A DNA stretch of 10,323 nt, taken from assembly GCA_002699335.1 (NCBI GenBank), contig PACG01000052.1, positions 42,137-52,459 of the forward strand. The letters run 5' to 3'. Source of the DNA: Candidatus Poribacteria bacterium (GTDB lineage Bacteria; Poribacteria; WGA-4E; UBA9662). A program made the translations under genes and the position numbers. Under the pieces are notes generated by a model, which was not told the DNA's origin, did no database searches, and saw nothing but the letters and a program-made list of their open reading frames with translations. Shown here piece after piece: positions 2,456-10,323 of the stretch. The number at the start of each line of letters is the position of its first letter. Position 1 is the stretch's first letter.

Positions 2456-4003
2456 TTACCACGAATTAGTAGTTCGCATCTCCCAAACATCCAAAGATTT
2501 TAAGGTTGTCTCGCCCCCAGAGGAAAATACCGAGACGCCGAGACTATCCTCACGGGTTGGGTAGATCCGTTGGGTCATACACTGTCTTCCGTTGGCAAAG
2601 ATCTCTAATACAGAACGATCCAAAAAGATATGGAGTTTTAGCCTCTCTCCATCGGCTAATTCGAATGGGGCTTGCTGAGTACTAGCGTATCGGTCGGCAT
2701 CGTCCAGACCTTCAGGTTCATCACGTGGGGTAAAGCGAGGGTATTTCACCGTTTTATCCAGAGTCGATTTGGAGAAATCAATTATTAGGCTATCACTTTC
2801 TGGCATATAAAAAACGGCCGTCTCTTCTACGCCGTCAGGCGAACGTTGTACCTTGAGGCCGAATGTTGTTGCTGTACTAGAATCAAATTCAGCTATCAGT
2901 TCTAAACAATTTCCGCTAACCTCTTTGATTACCATCTCAGATGTTAGTCGAATTCCTGCCCAACGTCGATGATTCCAGCGCAAAGTTTCCAGTTCTGGAA
3001 CTGGTTCGATTCCCAGTGTGCCATCTTCCGCTAGAGAGAGTACACGTGGTAAGGTCATCACGGAGGCCCAACCAGACGACCGTAACTGCTCCCACGGTCT
3101 GGTTTCACGAATCCAACCGAAGAAGATGCGGCGGCCTTTGCCATCCAACAGCGTTTCGGGGGCCGACAACTGGCCGCCAGGCCAATTCATTCGCCCGTGT
3201 ATCTGGGGCAAAAATTGTTCTTCTAGATAGTGACCCAGATAGTAATGGGCCATGCCATAGGGACGATGACCGTGCATTAACAGCATATGTCTATCACCAA
3301 GGGGGAAAAAATCAGGACAGGCACAGTCCTCAACTTCGTCAGTCCAGTCGCGGTTTGACTTATAAAATGGACCTCGGTATTGCCAGTTGATCAAGTCGGT
3401 TGAAATGAAGAGGCTGGTCGTGTCTCCTTCATAGCCTTGGCGACTGTTTTTGTTCCCAATCAGCGCGTGATATACACCGCCCTCATACCAGGCGCAGGGA
3501 TCAAAAACGGTGTACTCCTGCGATTGTTTCGGAATCGGTATGACTGGATTTTCAGGCAACGGAGTCCAGTGATTTAACTCATCGTCGGTGCTAATGGCGA
3601 TGCAGGTGCCCTGACCGGGTACATGGTAAATTAGGGTTGGTACTGGTGCATTTTCGATGGCGTCACCGCTGTAGATGCCTTGAGGCGTTGAACCGTCGGC
3701 CGCAGGTTTGATAGCGGGTGGATGCTGAATCCAATGCACCAGGTCATGGCTAGACGAGTGATCAAAGACGGGCAACCACTGTATATTGCTTGGTTGATCA
3801 GGAATTGGCAGTGGCATCCGACCCAGATAGAAAACGTGGTATCGGCCTTTCCAGAAAATAGTGCCGTTGGCATCATTAAAAAACCCGTCTGATGGAAGCA
3901 AGTGGTAACGGGGCCTGTGTCGATCTGCCCATAATCTATCACGTAATTCACGTGCGTGCTGGACAAAGGTCTGGATCTGTTCCGCCACTGCTGATGTGTT
4001 CAT
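2456..4003 (-). CDS. Glycoside hydrolase family 32 protein (beta-fructosidase/levanase/sucrose hydrolase type)
   Basis: This 515-residue enzyme probably cleaves terminal beta-fructosyl bonds in sucrose, inulin or levan. The five-bladed propeller starts at ~33 with YHLLPSDGFFNDANG; Asp44 in N-D-A-N-G corresponds to the nucleophile of the family's N-D-P-N-G. FDPCAW (Asp168) replaces the usual R-D-P, and the acid/base region is EDCACPDFF (225-233) instead of W-E-C-P-D. The likely acid is Glu225, but the shift is unusual. The C-terminal beta-sandwich has the typical LHIFLDRSVLEIFANGR at 457-473. There is no signal peptide, so it should act in the cytoplasm on imported sugar. ATG 4001-4003 is preferred to one 26 codons upstream, because GGAG lies 9 bases before it and the extra residues lack family character. 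Homology is intact throughout. Exact substrate unknown. Confidence 0.88.
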   Translation of the reverse strand: MNTSAVAEQIQTFVQHARELRDRLWADRHRPRYHLLPSDGFFNDANGTIFWKGRYHVFYLGRMPLPIPDQPSNIQWLPVFDHSSSHDLVHWIQHPPAIKPAADGSTPQGIYSGDAIENAPVPTLIYHVPGQGTCIAISTDDELNHWTPLPENPVIPIPKQSQEYTVFDPCAWYEGGVYHALIGNKNSRQGYEGDTTSLFISTDLINWQYRGPFYKSNRDWTDEVEDCACPDFFPLGDRHMLLMHGHRPYGMAHYYLGHYLEEQFLPQIHGRMNWPGGQLSAPETLLDGKGRRIFFGWIRETRPWEQLRSSGWASVMTLPRVLSLAEDGTLGIEPVPELETLRWNHRRWAGIRLTSEMVIKEVSGNCLELIAEFDSSTATTFGLKVQRSPDGVEETAVFYMPESDSLIIDFSKSTLDKTVKYPRFTPRDEPEGLDDADRYASTQQAPFELADGERLKLHIFLDRSVLEIFANGRQCMTQRIYPTREDSLGVSVFSSGGETTLKSLDVWEMRTTNSW

Positions 4004-4364
4004 ACCTTTTTTCTCCACGGCCTGGGGATGCAGGCACAATGATGATTTTTGATGGCATACCTGCCACCTGACTAAAGCCAACGTCGATAACCGCTCTCGG
4101 ATCGGTATAGCCGACTATTTCCGCGCACTTTAGTTTAGACAACAGGAGAATTTTTACCTCGGGACCTTGCCATAAGCCCGAGAAGTGATATCCGAAGGAC
4201 TGCTGACATTAATTGGCTTTAAAATCTGGAATGGGTACAGGCACACCAAATCGCCCAACAATCAATGGGTTGCTCGCAACCAGTTGCTTAGGGTGAGTTG
4301 AAAAACCTAAGGCAACCTGTAACAACGAGACAGTGCCAATCTCTCGTTGGATACGCCACCCAAC
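3948..4364 (-). pseudogene. Unidentified coding remnant broken by a TAA, possibly a LarA/DUF2088-like C-terminus
   Basis: One minus-strand frame looks protein-like across this span and is interrupted only by TAA at 4209-4211. The upstream part reads WRIQREIGTVSLLQVALGF, then HPKQLVASNPLIVGRFGVP and IPDFKAN before the stop. The downstream part reads GPEVKILLLSKLKCAEIVG, DPRAVIDVGF and PSKIIIVPASPGR. The beta-strand / short helix / V-P pattern of the second part is reminiscent of the C-terminal domain of lactate racemase-like (DUF2088) proteins, a weak resemblance only. The two parts could also be the tail of one gene and the remains of another. No start codon or upstream extension was found. 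The downstream part overlaps the 5' end of GH32, which suggests a dead gene rather than an operon partner. Confidence 0.3.
4013..4016 (-). promoter_or_regulatory. Ribosome binding site fixing the GH32 start
   Basis: GGAG on the minus strand lies 9 bases before ATG 4001-4003. The longer frame from 4081 would run through this site and through the end of the upstream coding remnant. Confidence 0.55.
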
Positions 4365-4444
4365 TTAAAAAGTCGTAATTTGCAATTTTGACTCCTCGCA
4401 TCTTTGTCTGATGGAAGACACATGAGACGAATGCGTCCTGTTTA

Positions 4445-5396
4445 CTGGCGTTGCGAGAACCAGCCTCGCGTAATCCTTTGAAGTAGCCCACGGCGAATAG
4501 CTGTGCTATATGGGGTGAGTTATCGAAGCTGTCGTCGCCCATTTTTGGGTAGTGATCTGGGCGACAGACGCCTTCATAACCGACGTCGCGGTAGGCACGT
4601 AGGCATTCCACTAGATCGGTTTGACCGTCATCGTGAAATGTTTCGGCGAACTTCTCAGGGTGCCTCTGACGTCGCGCAGGTGTACAAAGCAGATCTTCTT
4701 CTGTTCCCCGAACTGGCGGATGGCGGCCGGTAGTTCATCGGTCATCAGGGAGAAGTTCCCCTGGCAAAGCCCGATGCCGTTGGCCGGACTCGGTACCAGG
4801 TCGACTATTCTCTGATAGTTGTCGATGCTGCTCATGATGCGAACTACGCCGCGGATAGAGGATAAGGGCGGATCGTCCGTGTGCATGGTCATTTTGACAT
4901 CGGCTTCCTCAGCAACGGGTACCACCCACTGTAGAAAGTATCTGAGGTTCTCCCACTGCTGTTCCTCTTCGACCAGACATTTGGTCAACGTTCATCGCGG
5001 AGTTGGTCATGGTCGTAACCCCGCTGACCTGAGCTCCGCCACGTGAAGGAATGGCGTATGATGTCCTCAGTACGCCGATGATAGGCATCTACATGCTCCA
5101 GACGGGGATCCCTGCCTTCCCCATGTTGCGCAGAAACGTGCATACGATTTCGATTTCTTCCTCCCGTCCAGCCAAACCGAGCTTAATTTTCTCCATGGGA
5201 TTCGATCACCGACATCTCAAACCCATTCTTTTCGTAGCTGGTTTTAGCCCACATCAGGGATAAATAGCTCCACGGTTGCTCTTCCTCGCCATATAGGCTG
5301 TAGACTGATACCGGATACGGCGTGTTTGAGACCGCACTGCTTCATCAGTGTCGAGGTAACTCCCGCTTCCGGGGACATATGAAGGGCAACTTCCAT
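4445..5396 (-). pseudogene. uxuA: Mannonate dehydratase (UxuA family), multiply frameshifted
   Basis: UxuA converts D-mannonate to 2-keto-3-deoxygluconate in glucuronate breakdown. The start is sound: ATG 5394-5396 follows GGAG by 8 bases and reads MEVALHMSPEAG. After a break at ~5290-5297: QPWSYLSLMWAKTSYEKNG and MSVIES; a break near 5193; MEKIKLGLAGREEEIEIVC, then FLRNMGKAGIPVWSM, TAG (5089-5091), VLRTSYAIPSRGGAQVSG; breaks near 5005 and 4987; EEEQQWENLRYFLQWVVPVA, MTMHTDDPPLSSIRGVVRIM, VPSPANGIGLCQGNFSLM, CFVHLRDVRG; a break near 4657; FHDDGQTDLVECLRAYRDVG, RPDHYPKMG and LFAVGYFKGLREAG. The family's metal-site residues (Cys of L-C-Q-G, His of V-H-x-R-D, Asp-His of R-P-D-H) are still present, so the decay looks recent. 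The C-terminal end is approximate. Confidence 0.88.
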
Positions 5397-5489
5397 GATA
5401 TTATCTCCTCTCGTTAGATAGTTAAGGTTTTGCTGGTTAATATCTTGTTGCTTCCTCACTTCGAAATCATTGTCTTTCAACTTTAACGG

Positions 5490-5566: not shown

Positions 5567-6088
5567 TCAGGCCTGTAGTTGCTGTAGAATTGCTTCTATG
5601 GCCCCATCTGCCAGTGCTCGCATCTCTTCATCCTTGCGATCCTGGATGGGATGGGCAACAAAAACCCGGGCTGCGTCAAAACCCAGGGCCCCAGCCTGTG
5701 CCTGAGCCGCCTGCTGAAACACTTCGGAGGCGACAAAAACGGTCGGAATCCCGCGCGCTTCTAAATTGGTTGTGTCGTGCACACTGCACGTAGTGCAAGA
5801 GCCTCAGTCAGCTAGTCCTTCCACTATCAGATCGCATTCCGACACGATCTTCTGCTGCAAATCCACCGGTGCCGGCCGTGTAAAGGTCGGCTTACGATAG
5901 CGATTGACCTTCAGTCCCCGTCCTGATAACTGGGATTCCAGCTGATCCAAAAACACATCGCCCCGATTCTTGGAAATATCCAGCAACCCAATGGTTAACC
6001 CCTGCAGTGAACTAGGGCGTTCTACCCGGTTTCGCACAGTCGGTTTCTGTTCTGAAGTAGGATCTAGTAATATGCGTTTCTCACTCAT
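5567..6088 (-). CDS. UGSC-family selenoprotein with in-frame TGA (Sec95)
   Basis: ATG 6086-6088 to TGA 5567-5569 gives 174 codons, with one internal TGA at codon 95 (5804-5806). Read as selenocysteine it yields C-D-L-I-V-E-G-L-A-D-U-G-S-C-T-T-C-S-V-H-D-T-T-N, the signature of the UGSC (seleno)protein family, whose non-Sec members have Cys there. The match continues on both sides: GLTIGLLDISKNRGDVFLDQ (30-49) before, and RGIPTVFVASEVFQQAA after, so this is not a pseudogene break. Cys98 and Cys101 could form a selenenylsulfide with Sec95; the fold looks Rossmann-like with no signal peptide, so a cytoplasmic redox role is likely. The reaction is unknown to me. Its ATG overlaps the previous stop (ATGA) and has GGGAG 8 bases before it. 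TGA also ends this and neighbouring genes, so decoding needs local signals plus selA/B/C/D elsewhere. Confidence 0.9.
5774..5806 (-). promoter_or_regulatory. Candidate bacterial SECIS hairpin after the Sec codon
   Basis: Starting at the UGA (5804-5806), the mRNA can pair UGCAC (5797-5793) with GUGCA (5782-5778), with outer C-G and U-A pairs after one mismatch and a 10-nt apical loop containing G. This location, just inside the coding region, is where bacterial SelB-binding hairpins lie. A competing tight hairpin (UGCAC-UAC-GUGCA, 5797-5785) is also possible. No folding energy was calculated. Confidence 0.45.
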
Positions 6089-7509
6089 TTGATGATCTCC
6101 CTGGTTACAGACTTACTGCCGCCCCAACTACTAATAATAGCGGAAAATAACCCCGCTTCTCCGCCGGCTCGAATAATATATGGCGCGCCCGACCTAAACT
6201 TGGGCCGGGTTTGGGGGGCTTCAACCCGGCCGGGCGAAATCCCTTCTACTATCCCGTCCGCACCCGCTTTCAGTTCTTGTACCGGCATTTCCAATAACTG
6301 CGCCAACCGCTGCTGTAAACGGTCCTTGGACCATCCCGCTTCGTCATATCGGCGCGAATGCTCCGGCGAAATGACCAGTACCGGGGTAGGAGCATTGGCA
6401 TGTTTCGGATGTCCATCAACTTTCAAACAGGCGGCAAAGGATCGTGTTAGAGACTCGGGATGCCGGGAGGCTTGGTCCATCACCGGCTGAACCCCACTGG
6501 CGGCAAACAAACTCACCGTTGAGGCCTGCGAGGAAAACCCCCGCTCGACGGCCAATGACTCCCACTGCGAATCGATCTCTCGTTCGGCAAAACAAAATGT
6601 ATATTTCCCCGGATACCCGAGCATTCCCCGATCCACTCCACCGGGCACACCACCACCCACATTGCGAATGACCAACTGCAGCGTCCGGCCGATAGTAGCA
6701 TTAGCCCGATTCCCCTGTCCCAAGGCATTCACTCCCCAATTCATACCAATTTGCCCTGCTATGGGGCCGTTCACCACCACCATCGGTGTAGCAAAAAAAG
6801 TGGTGGCCAACAAGCCGTGCATGCCAAAATCTTCCATTAGTGCCGCTTCTACCGCTGTTAATACCACCGGTAAATACTCCGGCTTACACCCGGCCATCAC
6901 GGCATTAACGGCGACTTTCTCTACCGTACAGGTGTTGTAATTGGGCGGTATAATCCCCACCACCTCATCCGGCCCGCGATGGGTGCCGGCCAACATCTGT
7001 CGCACACGGGCCTCCGTTGGTGGTACCACCGGTAGACCATCGGACCAGCCTCGCTCAAAGCAGGCTTCCACCTCATCTTCTAAAGCGCCAAGCTCAATCT
7101 GCCGAGAGGTCAGTTGCATCTCTCCCCAGCGAACGGCCAGTGCTTCCTCCACGCCCGGTTCAACACTTTTGGAACCGCATCCGGGTCGGGTTTCGGGAAG
7201 ATGCATCCCCAGACCACCGATCCGGCTTACCGCCTCCCACTCGCTCCGATTCCAGCCCACTGTACGTTGGACCTCCCGTCCACCGTTCGTCCTGATTAGT
7301 GTGGGAACAGTTTCAATATTTAGCCGATAAGAGTGCTCCAAACGGGTATCGTCCACCACCTGAGCAATACCTGCTGGGAAATCAGGATCGTCCTGTGTAT
7401 AAACGGTGAGAGAACGCCTCTCCAGTTGATTCAGAACAGGTTCAACCAGTCTGCAGGTCGGACAATCATATTTAACGACAGCGATTAAACTATCTGACAG
7501 TTGGTTCAC
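6085..7509 (-). CDS. Thioredoxin-like protein with large uncharacterised C-terminal domain, partner of the UGSC selenoprotein
   Basis: This 474-residue protein begins with a thioredoxin-like domain (about 1-95): a beta strand SLIAVVKYD, then Cys16-Pro-Thr-Cys19, a helix, and T-V-P-T (67-70) at the cis-proline position. Residues ~125-474 form a second domain I cannot name. Notable segments are GWSDGLPVVPPTEARV (154-169), IIPPNYNTCTVEKVAVNAVM (186-205) with AGCKPEYLPVV, a Gly/Asn-rich stretch N-G-P-I-A-G-Q-I-G-M-N (247-257), GGGVPGGVDRGMLGYPGKYT (285-304) and SSWGG near the end. There is no signal peptide or membrane segment. Cys residues at 111, 150, 194, 208, 306 and 361 could take part in thiol chemistry. 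It starts at GTG 7507-7509, overlapping the small upstream frame (GTGA), and its TGA overlaps the UGSC start (ATGA). I infer it supplies electrons to, or forms a complex with, the selenoprotein. The frame is intact. Confidence 0.85.
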   Translation of the reverse strand: MNQLSDSLIAVVKYDCPTCRLVEPVLNQLERRSLTVYTQDDPDFPAGIAQVVDDTRLEHSYRLNIETVPTLIRTNGGREVQRTVGWNRSEWEAVSRIGGLGMHLPETRPGCGSKSVEPGVEEALAVRWGEMQLTSRQIELGALEDEVEACFERGWSDGLPVVPPTEARVRQMLAGTHRGPDEVVGIIPPNYNTCTVEKVAVNAVMAGCKPEYLPVVLTAVEAALMEDFGMHGLLATTFFATPMVVVNGPIAGQIGMNWGVNALGQGNRANATIGRTLQLVIRNVGGGVPGGVDRGMLGYPGKYTFCFAEREIDSQWESLAVERGFSSQASTVSLFAASGVQPVMDQASRHPESLTRSFAACLKVDGHPKHANAPTPVLVISPEHSRRYDEAGWSKDRLQQRLAQLLEMPVQELKAGADGIVEGISPGRVEAPQTRPKFRSGAPYIIRAGGEAGLFSAIISSWGGSKSVTREIIK

Positions 7510-7782: not shown

Positions 7783-8985
7783 TCAAATCTGCCACTTTTC
7801 ATTAATTTCTTCCTGATACCCCGAAACTCTATCCTGGTAAACATCCTCGAACTTGACTGACTCTCCGCACCATCCGGATTCGTAAATGGCATTACATACC
7901 GCTTGCGCTTTTAGCCCATCGACACCGTCGAGTTCCGGCCGGCGACGGTGTCGGACAGCATCCAGAAAATCGTATACTTCCAGAGCCACGCCTTCAGTGA
8001 TGCTGTGTGGAAATAGCCTCTCCTTCTCTTCCGGGCTAAGGCTTTCCAGATAGGCTCTTTGCAGATCCTCTTTTTGCCGTTTGCTGCCGTCCCACAGTTG
8101 CAGTTCGGGTTCTTGAGGATAACCGCCGCCACTGTAGATGGAGCCAAGACTTCCATGGTAGCTATTGTAACCCATACCGTGGCCCGGTGCGGCTGAAGTG
8201 CTTACCCATTGCCCCATCACACCATTTTCGAAGGTGATGGTGGCTAAAGCCGTATCCTCAACCGTCTGAGCGACATAATGCTTTTCAGCGTCCGGAAACT
8301 GAAACTGGCTCAGATTATCTACCCGGGCGTAGATTTCGTCTGGTTCCCCAAAGAAATAGATCAACAAATCGACGTAGTGTACTCCACCATCAATGATCCC
8401 GTTGCCACCGCTGGTCAGCTTGTTTCTTCGCCAGACCATGGGATCGTCACGTAAACGGGTTTCCGGGTCGGTAGCCCCGCTGATACCCTGACGAAAGAAC
8501 ATCCGCGGCTGACCCACCATTTTTTCCTTGTTGATCATCCATTCGACTGTTCGCGGGCCCACCCAACGCCGTACCTGTTCCGCCGTAGCCAGAATTCGAT
8601 TGTGCTTCTTGGCGCTCTGAATCATCTTATGACCCGCCCGGATGGTGACGGCCAGTGGTTTTTCCACTATCACGTCCAACCCGGCCTCAAAACAGAGAAT
8701 AGCCAGCGAATGGTGCAGAAAATGTGGGCCACAGATATCAGCCGCGTTCAACGACTCTTTATCCAGCATTTCGCTAACATCGCTGTACACGTTTGGCTGA
8801 ATGCCGTTCTGAGTTTGGTTGGCTGTGCTGGCAAAATCTCGTGCCCGGTTTTCATCCACATCACACATCGCAACGAAGTCGAAGATGTCAATTCCTTGAT
8901 TCTTGAGATAGATATAGGCGTTCAGATGCGCCCGCGCCATCCCACCACAACCGATAATAGCAAGTCGTATTTTATCTGTTTGCAT
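7783..8985 (-). CDS. Gfo/Idh/MocA family NAD(P)-dependent oxidoreductase
   Basis: This 400-residue protein has the N-terminal Rossmann fold with IRLAIIGCGGMARAH (G12-x-G14-x-x-A17), M-C-D-V-D ending the second strand, and the family's E-K-P at 108-110, whose Lys is the usual catalytic or substrate-binding residue. The C-terminal alpha/beta domain contains GGNGIIDGGVHYVDLL (~193-208), matching the conserved D-x-G-x-H-x-x-D signature, so the active site looks complete. Members oxidise or reduce sugars, inositols or sugar acids; the substrate cannot be told from sequence. ATG 8983-8985 is chosen over GTG 8989-8991, because AAGGAG (8991-8996) lies 5 bases before the ATG and overlaps the GTG. It stands ~140 bp upstream of the selenoprotein operon with a separate promoter candidate between them, so co-transcription is uncertain. 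A role in sugar metabolism fits GH32 and UxuA nearby. Confidence 0.92.
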   Translation of the reverse strand: MQTDKIRLAIIGCGGMARAHLNAYIYLKNQGIDIFDFVAMCDVDENRARDFASTANQTQNGIQPNVYSDVSEMLDKESLNAADICGPHFLHHSLAILCFEAGLDVIVEKPLAVTIRAGHKMIQSAKKHNRILATAEQVRRWVGPRTVEWMINKEKMVGQPRMFFRQGISGATDPETRLRDDPMVWRRNKLTSGGNGIIDGGVHYVDLLIYFFGEPDEIYARVDNLSQFQFPDAEKHYVAQTVEDTALATITFENGVMGQWVSTSAAPGHGMGYNSYHGSLGSIYSGGGYPQEPELQLWDGSKRQKEDLQRAYLESLSPEEKERLFPHSITEGVALEVYDFLDAVRHRRRPELDGVDGLKAQAVCNAIYESGWCGESVKFEDVYQDRVSGYQEEINEKWQI

Positions 8986-8990
8986 TGTCA

Positions 8991-8996
8991 CTCCTT
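8991..8996 (-). promoter_or_regulatory. Ribosome binding site fixing the oxidoreductase start
   Basis: AAGGAG on the minus strand, 5 bases before ATG 8983-8985. The alternative GTG two codons upstream overlaps this site and so cannot be the start that uses it. Confidence 0.7.
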
Positions 8997-9297: not shown

Positions 9298-10323
9298 CAG
9301 GTACAGGCTGAGATAAACCGACAAACCGTGGAGACTATTGACGTACTCCTCCAGGTTGGTGTAACCATCGCCGTTATTGGGATCTTCCGGATTCAGGTCG
9401 TTGGCCCTTTCCCAGGCACCAGGCATGCCGTCGCGGTCACGGTCCCAATCGCTGGACCGACGCTCCATGGGGTAACTGTCTCAACCTCCAACCTGGTTCT
9501 GTGAATCAATCAGTGTTCCCTTTTGCGCGACGATATTTTCGATGCTGCGCTCGTCCACAGTATCGTGTACCAGGGAGCAACCTGAGTATTTCAGACAGCT
9601 TGCGTAGGCATCCCTAGCGCTTTGTGTGGGTAGGGTAAACACACCGCAATCGATTTCTGTGCCTTCAATGCCAGCGATCGTGTGATGTGGACATGTAGTT
9701 GCCCGTATTCGTATAGTCTAGTGCCGTAAAGTTGTCACGGTTGAAGGCCTCGGGTATACCATCAAAGTAATTGCCTTGGGCGAATCCTTTGGCCTTGGTT
9801 GGGTTGTGGTCTTTCATACGCAATGGCTGCACCGAACGGTCTTTTTTACAGGGCCCGGGTCGATAGTAGTTGTTGATGACATTCATCTGAACACCTCCCA
9901 GGTTGGTTCGGCTGCTCCAATTGTAATTGACGTAGTCGCGAAAGTCCACAATCCAGTCCGCTCCCCCTTTTTCAACGCTCCTATGGTCGGGTGCCGATTG
10001 CGCGAGGTGGTGTAGATAATGTGGTAAACGGTGGTGTTGCCAAAGCAATCGCGTAGAGAAGTGGCCATGGCATGCTCGCCCTTGTGGTGTAGAGATCGAT
10101 TCAGTGCCTCGCTGGCGATCATCCACTGGAGGGTCATGTTCTCGTTTCCCCGATAGTCGGAATTGCCGTCAATCCCCCAACTCAGGGACAAATGTCGAGA
10201 ATAACCTGATCGTTATAGTCCACGGCCCGTCCGGCCCAGACCCTTTTTCCTTGTTCTCGTCGTCCAATCTCATGCGCAGGTAGCGAACGATAATATGCTT
10301 ACTGTGCTTGATAGAAAAGTTCC
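9274..10323 (-). pseudogene. Pectate lyase-like (PL1-type) gene, frameshifted and cut by the window edge
   Basis: Joined minus-strand frames rebuild a secreted pectate lyase-like beta-helix protein, which would cleave polygalacturonate by elimination. In order: NFSIKHSKHIIVRYLRMRL; D-Y-N-D-Q-V-I-L-D; LSLSWGIDGNSDYRG; NMTLQWMIASEALNRSLHH, then K-G-E-H; TTVYHIIYTTSRNRHPTIG; DFRDYVNYNWSSRTNLGG; MNVINNYYRPGP; G-I-E-G-T-E-I-D; PTQSARDAYASCLKYSGCSL; and the calcium-binding-like tail DRDRDGMPGAWERANDLNP with GDGYTNLEEYVNSL, common at the end of such proteins. Breaks lie near 10228, 10193, 9965 and 9670, and a TGA at 9481-9483 falls after V-G-G where the family has Trp. The 5' end and signal peptide are beyond the window. 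Together with dead UxuA this implies loss of pectin/uronate use. Confidence 0.85.

Follow-up and report, generated by a model that had tools for sequence, protein, structure and literature searches.

We propose, with a probability of roughly 0.6, that the selenoprotein UGSC is one half of a widespread and so far unrecognised two-protein selenoenzyme. The other half, for which there is no Pfam or NCBIfam model, would itself constitute a new selenoprotein family, in which a Cys-to-Sec switch at PG(C/U)GS had a single origin, acquired a SECIS hairpin of its own and, provided one short contig has been binned correctly, passed between Actinomycetota and Poribacteria. The starting point is a stretch of 10,323 nucleotides from a Candidatus Poribacteria bacterium (hereafter the window), which we hold with great confidence to contain an intact gene of the UGSC family along 6088-5567. 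The features on which the argument draws are as follows.

5567..6088, minus strand: UGSC-family selenoprotein gene, 173 residues, selenocysteine (Sec) at 95, stop TGA at 5569-5567; matches to NF041046 and PF24696
5804..5806, minus strand: TGA in frame at codon 95, decoded as selenocysteine; all 31 named loci have TGA in this column, and 7 stop-free homologues have Cys
5786..5806, minus strand: U-G-S-C-T-T-C redox motif, residues 95-101 (alignments A1 and A4)
5776..5790, minus strand: SECIS-type hairpin CGUGCA-GUG-UGCACG, 6 bp, loop 19 nt after the UGA, with covariation
6085..7509, minus strand: partner gene, 474 aa, with N-terminal thioredoxin domain, PGCGS linker and unclassified core; its stop overlaps the UGSC start (ATGA)
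7453..7464, minus strand: CPTC motif of the partner thioredoxin domain, residues 16-19; K13, C16, T18 and C19 invariant in 19 sequences
7177..7179, minus strand: Cys111 of the partner (PG-C-GS); six homologues elsewhere have a TGA in frame instead
6094..7125, minus strand: partner core domain, residues about 129-472; in relatives mostly the core alone, away from UGSC

The UGSC gene and its family

The minus-strand frame from 6088 to 5567 runs for 173 codons before its stop, and its sole interruption is the TGA of codon 95 at 5806-5804. An earlier note on this DNA had joined two short ORFs across this codon, and its coordinates, spacing and motif proved exact: the ORFs at 5804-6088 (94 aa, ATG start, TGA end) and 5567-5782 (71 aa, GTG start) share one frame, with only the TGA and seven codons (5803-5783) before the GTG of the second. 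Reading the TGA as U yields a 173-residue protein containing DUGSCTTC. The search of this joined protein against the UGSC models, which the note had proposed, gave 158.6 bits for NCBIfam NF041046 (cut-off 125) and 154.7 bits for Pfam PF24696 "UGSC" (cut-off 25). The homology claimed to continue across the TGA was borne out, as each half alone also matches the NCBIfam model (54.8 and 82.7 bits) and the Pfam model (58.5 and 75.1 bits); the NF041046 cut-off is passed by the joined protein only and the PF24696 cut-off by each half and by the whole. Alignments A1 (18 rows) and A4 (17 rows) show no variation at residues 95-98 and almost none at residue 101, which is other than Cys in some paralogues.

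The window protein has in common with the family represented by NF041046 and PF24696 that it passes both cut-offs, carries Sec in U-G-S-C and conserves the flanking residues, and it shows no essential difference from it. As the family has been published since at least 2008, the window gene is an additional member of a known family, which the available text of the review PMC13188914 places among the selenoproteins with largely uncharacterized functions. Within the window, ARAGORN found no tRNA gene and no Rfam family reached its gathering score.

Conservation of the TGA codon

The nearest relative, locus L068 (Candidatus Poribacteria isolate Arabian9_MAG_50), and the nearest genome, G001, are apparently one assembly, with the same match coordinates and with tRNA-like hits at identical places. 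Window and G001 have 30% of sampled 31-mers in common, and nucleotide identity to L068 is 91.5% across the largest aligned block. The L068 protein is 96% identical and has the same TGA; its pairing of residues 1-172 with 172 codons upholds the absence of any indel asserted in the note. Against L068, dN/dS is 0.11 before the TGA and 0.20 after it, based on few changes (nonsynonymous to synonymous, 3.5/9.5 before and 4.0/6.0 after).

A scan of named genomes, by their titles from several phyla (Poribacteria, Latescibacterota, Actinobacteria, Myxococcota, Chloroflexi and others) recovered TGA at the Sec column in all 31 loci. UGSC matches were obtained in 49 of 58 relatives (G001 included); each of the 47 relative rows that span the model from position 15 or lower to position 170 or higher contains exactly one TGA, and the TGA column was confirmed in 30 loci from 30 of these 49 relatives. 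Among 198 genomes of the order around locus L077 (Acidimicrobiales by its title), UGSC occurs in 95, with at least 150 rows, of which among those listed 143 have one TGA and 7 have none; all seven stop-free homologues carry Cys at the Sec column. Homologues placed by a search for U/C-G-S-C comprise 80 TGA forms and the 7 Cys forms.

A SECIS-type hairpin

Codons 100-104 of the family are nearly frozen as xCG TGC AGT xTG CAC, with few exceptions in the wider set of 80 TGA forms. Columns 100, 101, 102 and 104, all inside the hairpin, have the lowest synonymous diversity among 66 scorable codon columns, and the same four are lowest among 68 columns once the set is reduced to 25 sequences by thinning at 85% identity; normalised values are 0-0.35 at these columns versus a mean of 0.83-0.84 elsewhere. 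The family consensus is CGUGCA-GUN-UGCACG with the loop 19 nt past the UGA, and all six pairs are intact in 79 of 80 TGA forms versus none of the 7 Cys forms, a count that leaves out L001 (the same place as L068), L098 (its contig stops within the motif), L164 (UGSC truncated ahead of the Sec codon) and a single short hit in L171. Across 56 distinct rows 99.7% of cells are paired, and double changes occur at two pairs (6 cells), the compensatory exchanges being C-G to G-C and G-C to A-U. The covariation score is 0.079 versus 0.025 when shuffled, with 0 of 500 shuffles as high; two other covariation measures were equalled by 25 of 500. With the 3' strand shifted by 3, the score is 0.065, near that observed, but only 41% of cells are then paired.

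The bacterial SECIS model in the available part of PMC13188914 (the legend of Fig. 2) comprises a loop of 3-9 nt, a stem of 4-16 bp, a G in the first two loop positions, a spacing of 16-37 nt and an MFE at or below -7.5. The window hairpin satisfies these constraints as given there, with -9.5 kcal/mol in a 39-nt context. By energy alone it is unremarkable, since 150 of 200 shuffled sequences reach an equal or better fold; a 52-nt fold of the window prefers a competing hairpin, and pair probabilities are 0.35-0.53. Folding energy is uninformative for the window, and covariation was used instead. SelB would recognise the hairpin at 5790-5776 and insert Sec at UGA-95. One group of UGSC paralogues (L173-L175 and L184) reads UGSCTSW and thus has Trp where the motif would have its third Cys; here TGC has become TGG and GTG has become GTC, so that a C-G pair is swapped for G-C and the SECIS pair is kept.

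Selenocysteine machinery in related genomes

A tRNA-Sec scored above cut-off in 54 of the 58 relatives and in 25 of the 31 genomes of named loci, at a cut-off that also admits hits near 47-53 bits and is passed by 5 of 14 control genomes; the best hit is at least 70 bits in each of the 54 and at least 64 bits in each of the 25. The four relatives without a tRNA-Sec over cut-off (G001, G037, G043 and G051) all have the TGA form of UGSC. Among 8 genomes tried, 6 have SelB, 6 SelA and 7 SelD above cut-off. The nearest genome, G001 (80% complete, 530 contigs), yielded neither tRNA-Sec nor SelB over the cut-offs, with SelA (577 bits) and SelD (367 bits) both above. Its SelD (locus L061) contains an in-frame TGA in CAGUASKLDPG, from which we infer that this genome uses or recently used Sec. 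The gene for tRNA-Sec, selC, adjoins selB in G002, G003, G004 and G007, both other searched genomes of the G001 family showing this adjacency; given this arrangement and 80% completeness, one missing contig could explain the gap in G001. As for the other three, G037 (94% complete) has SelA, SelB and SelD with no tRNA-Sec over cut-off, G043 (96% complete) has SelB and SelD with no tRNA-Sec or SelA over cut-off, and G051 (81% complete) has SelD with no tRNA-Sec, SelA or SelB over cut-off.

Across the 198 Acidimicrobiales genomes, with tRNA-Sec counted at E below 1e-10, 84 have both UGSC and tRNA-Sec, 11 UGSC only, 31 tRNA-Sec only and 72 neither. Three of the 11 (G142, G243 and G268) have only Cys forms among the matches listed and the other eight have TGA forms; G108 and G231 have only the Cys form among the matches listed, yet possess tRNA-Sec. 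A strong tRNA-Sec hit is missing in 8 of the 84 genomes with a TGA form among the matches listed.

Selenocysteine, decay or other decoding

The surroundings of the gene lend some colour to an ordinary nonsense mutation, by which UGSC would be a pseudogene in a decaying region: compared with the frames of L068, the window has 5 stops along 5411-4626 and 4 stops along 10194-9331, and the remark in the earlier note that many genes here are broken was a fair one. The UGSC gene nonetheless retains the identical TGA of all 31 named loci, has a low dN/dS downstream of it, differs from L068 by no further stop and no indel, and carries a covarying hairpin that is missing from the Cys forms, and we regard decay as extremely improbable. 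It is no more credible that the TGA is decoded as another residue, through TGA assigned to Trp or through general suppression. The failure to detect tRNA-Sec and SelB in the nearest genome speaks for such decoding, but the stop-free homologues have Cys rather than Trp in 7 of 7 cases, a SECIS-type hairpin accompanies the TGA, the partner and UGSC genes both terminate in TGA, and the SelD of that same genome has its TGA at what we take to be the active-site Sec/Cys position. With the same TGA in the nearest relative and the 31 named loci and a hairpin that covaries with the TGA forms, the UGSC TGA almost certainly represents selenocysteine and not decay. The original reading of the gene as a UGSC selenoprotein is one on which family models, the TGA/Cys column, low dN/dS on both sides and the covarying hairpin agree.

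The region around UGSC does contain broken genes or assembly errors, and the UGSC gene is not among them. At 4288-5411 (minus strand) a frame that is open for 330 codons in L068 is broken, the five stops being followed by a second piece, and the pieces match mannonate dehydratase UxuA; 9331-10194 (minus strand) is 58% identical to a 316-codon open stretch of L068 and is apparently a decayed gene. The UGSC pair is flanked on one side by an open glycoside hydrolase family 32 gene (beta-fructosidase-like, 2456-4081, minus strand) and on the other by a Gfo/Idh/MocA oxidoreductase (7783-8991, minus strand).

A partner gene that accompanies UGSC

Directly upstream of UGSC, and overlapping it by four bases, lies a gene, not mentioned in the earlier note, with a dN/dS of 0.15 against L068 that adjoins UGSC in all 31 named loci, the thioredoxin domain being missing in L070 and L074. 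No Pfam or NCBIfam model matched the partner above cut-off. In the predicted structure (mean pLDDT 74, much of the linker below 50) the N-terminus adopts a thioredoxin fold with CPTC as its CxxC, and all but a few of the best 50 structure matches are thioredoxin-fold chains or complexes holding one; VIA-align matches cover residues 1-112 only. Two fumarate hydratase matches span most of the model at an rmsd of 17-19 and, given the quality of the model, carry little weight for the fold of the core. The core domain occurs in 49 of the 58 relatives, nearly always without the thioredoxin domain, and a protein search with it returned at least 8000 homologues.

The two genes coincide in distribution. 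The 58 relatives comprise 48 with both, 1 with UGSC only, 1 with the partner only and 8 with neither, and the 198 Acidimicrobiales genomes, with the partner counted at E below 1e-50 and many pairs side by side, comprise 92, 3, 2 and 101, respectively. Presence agrees in 56 of 58 (Fisher p 4e-8) and 193 of 198 (p 4e-50), p-values that overstate independence as the genomes are related. On these sequence comparisons, the partner is a near-obligate companion of UGSC.

Thirty genomes of the window's order (loci L014-L043) hold a different UGSC clade, 42-46% identical to the window copy and without an adjacent partner. In a tree of the partner, the window's pair groups with Latescibacterota. These comparisons suggest that the pair in the window was acquired by lateral transfer.

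Conserved neighbourhood was also considered as a clue to function and set aside: when ORFs of 61 loci were clustered, the partner was the only cluster, besides UGSC and the frames overlapping it, found in all 31 named loci, and the remaining clusters listed belong to few loci each or to one of two locus sets. For pairs in which the partner lacks the thioredoxin domain, short-chain dehydrogenases adjoin in L173, L174 and L178 of the order around L077, and other neighbours, within ten hand-chosen proteins, are an aldehyde dehydrogenase, a Rieske protein and an amidohydrolase, a hint of a link to catabolism. Four genomes of that order (G101, G207, G238 and G264) have 6 to 10 UGSC matches each.

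A probable second Sec site in the partner

A single TGA interrupts the partner in the relative G003 and in five full-length rows among the matches listed (loci L100/L164 for G003, and L159-L163). All six TGAs align with Cys111 of the window partner, giving PG-U-GS where the window has Cys. Residue 111 was compared across 61 distinct places (70 rows covering it, with 9 repeats removed by handle; forms without the thioredoxin domain fall out), and is TGA in 6, Cys in 55 and nothing else. The UGSC gene beside each of the five TGA-bearing partners carries its own TGA, and in G003 the contig ends within the UGSC gene, ahead of this codon. The partner TGA is followed by an 8-bp hairpin, GUCGACCC-CGGGC-GGGUCGAC, with the loop 20 nt after the UGA; it is complete in 5 of 6 TGA forms, the sixth being one pair short. 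No complete copy occurs among the 55 Cys forms, of which two retain 7 of the 8 pairs.

The six TGA forms make up one side of a branch (100/99 at the fork) in the tree built from 62 partner rows, and a single origin of the Cys-to-Sec change is likely on this comparison. The branch mixes G003, of the window's family, with Acidimicrobiales genomes, and one reading is that the TGA-bearing partner spread by lateral transfer. As the G003 contig is 3,796 bases long and its assembly is given as 6% contaminated, mis-binning is possible. Outside the six-form count stand TGA-bearing paralogues without the thioredoxin domain in G165, G264 and G222, matched from residues 82-111 on, and there are core rows with extra stops whose matches begin at residues 89-102: one in G040 has 2 TGA plus 2 TAA, and three others have TAA.

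The TGA-bearing partner apparently represents a second, unregistered selenoprotein family. The string GUGS is absent from the available text of the 2026 review PMC13188914, where occurrences of UGS and PGU belong to other entries, and the passages covered from papers naming UGSC, in a collection with few subscription papers, contain no description of this partner.

Comparison with known systems and proposed mechanism

A fusion reported in the GOS selenoproteome, UGSC/Unknown_1 (PMC2398784), likewise joins UGSC to a second conserved domain. According to the part of that source available, such fused domains as a rule have a conserved Cys. The partner differs in being a separate gene with a thioredoxin domain; as far as that source describes it, the fused domain could be the partner core. 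A further likeness is to multi-selenoprotein operons (grdA-grdB, SAO and Tso; available text of PMC13188914), in which adjacent selenoprotein genes are thought to cooperate, as the TGAs of partner and UGSC lie side by side in five genomes and perhaps in G003. UGSC is absent from section 9 of that review, on such operons, in the text available.

The structure model of UGSC (pLDDT 87.9) finds its best matches in flavodoxin, lumazine synthase and receiver domains. The structure matches listed include no thioredoxin, a missing match that does not exclude the fold, and a PDB sequence search gave nothing significant (best E 1). The flavodoxin-like prediction differs from the thioredoxin-like fold suggested for UGSC in the part of PMC2398784 available.

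Two other accounts of the protein were weighed. UGSC might be a short relative of GrdB/PrdB of glycine/D-proline reductase, with the partner standing in for the pyruvoyl subunit; PrdB and GrdB function together with further subunits whose genes lie close by. A UxxC motif holds the Sec in these proteins as in UGSC, and a weak profile alignment sets Sec on Sec, but its hhalign probability is 0.8% (with a profile of only 10 PrdB-like sequences, all from the window's order), PF07355 is hit by 0 of 18 UGSC members at E up to 10, and there is no detectable sequence relation beyond the motif. The PF07355 matches in the 58 relatives represent a separate PrdB-like protein with its own TGA, and the relation, which we consider very unlikely, was dropped. 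This protein (loci L105-L124), corresponding to the C-terminal half of PF07355, reads FLTPV-U-PxCNQS across the TGA; matches occur in 50 of the 58 genomes, and eleven read through. Somewhat less remote, and still unlikely, is that UGSC works by itself, in the manner of a generic thiol peroxidase or of a thioredoxin-like protein, and has an incidental neighbour. This would fit the thioredoxin-like fold suggested in the available part of PMC2398784 and the flanks of UGSC in the window's order, where the partner core was not beside UGSC in 30 of 30 loci (flanks of up to 1,500 bases each side) and the core gene lies elsewhere. Against it, the two genes are present together or absent together even where they are unlinked (both, neither and discordant in 48, 8 and 2 of 58 genomes and in 92, 101 and 5 of 198), and the predicted structure is closest to flavodoxin, lumazine synthase and receiver domains, with no thioredoxin among the matches listed.

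For the preferred two-protein selenoenzyme, the Sec site, its hairpin and the gene pairing are read directly from the DNA, and the chemistry is proposed as follows. The UGSC product would be a small alpha/beta protein with a predicted flavodoxin-like fold, in which Sec opens the helix that comes after the third strand and Cys98 and Cys101 lie further along. UGSC and partner would form a complex acting as one selenol/thiol reductase, in which the Sec selenolate would attack the substrate, Cys98 or Cys101 would resolve the intermediate, and electrons may return via the CxxC of the partner thioredoxin domain and Cys111. We give this two-protein reductase mechanism about an even chance; complex formation, the electron path and the reductase chemistry are its inferred elements.

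If the proposal is true, the paired Sec sites would share one electron or catalytic path. The near-obligate pairing with a protein that has a thioredoxin domain makes UGSC function testable as a two-protein system, and the partner Sec site of six genomes would mean an additional selenoprotein family and reveal the position of a second redox centre.
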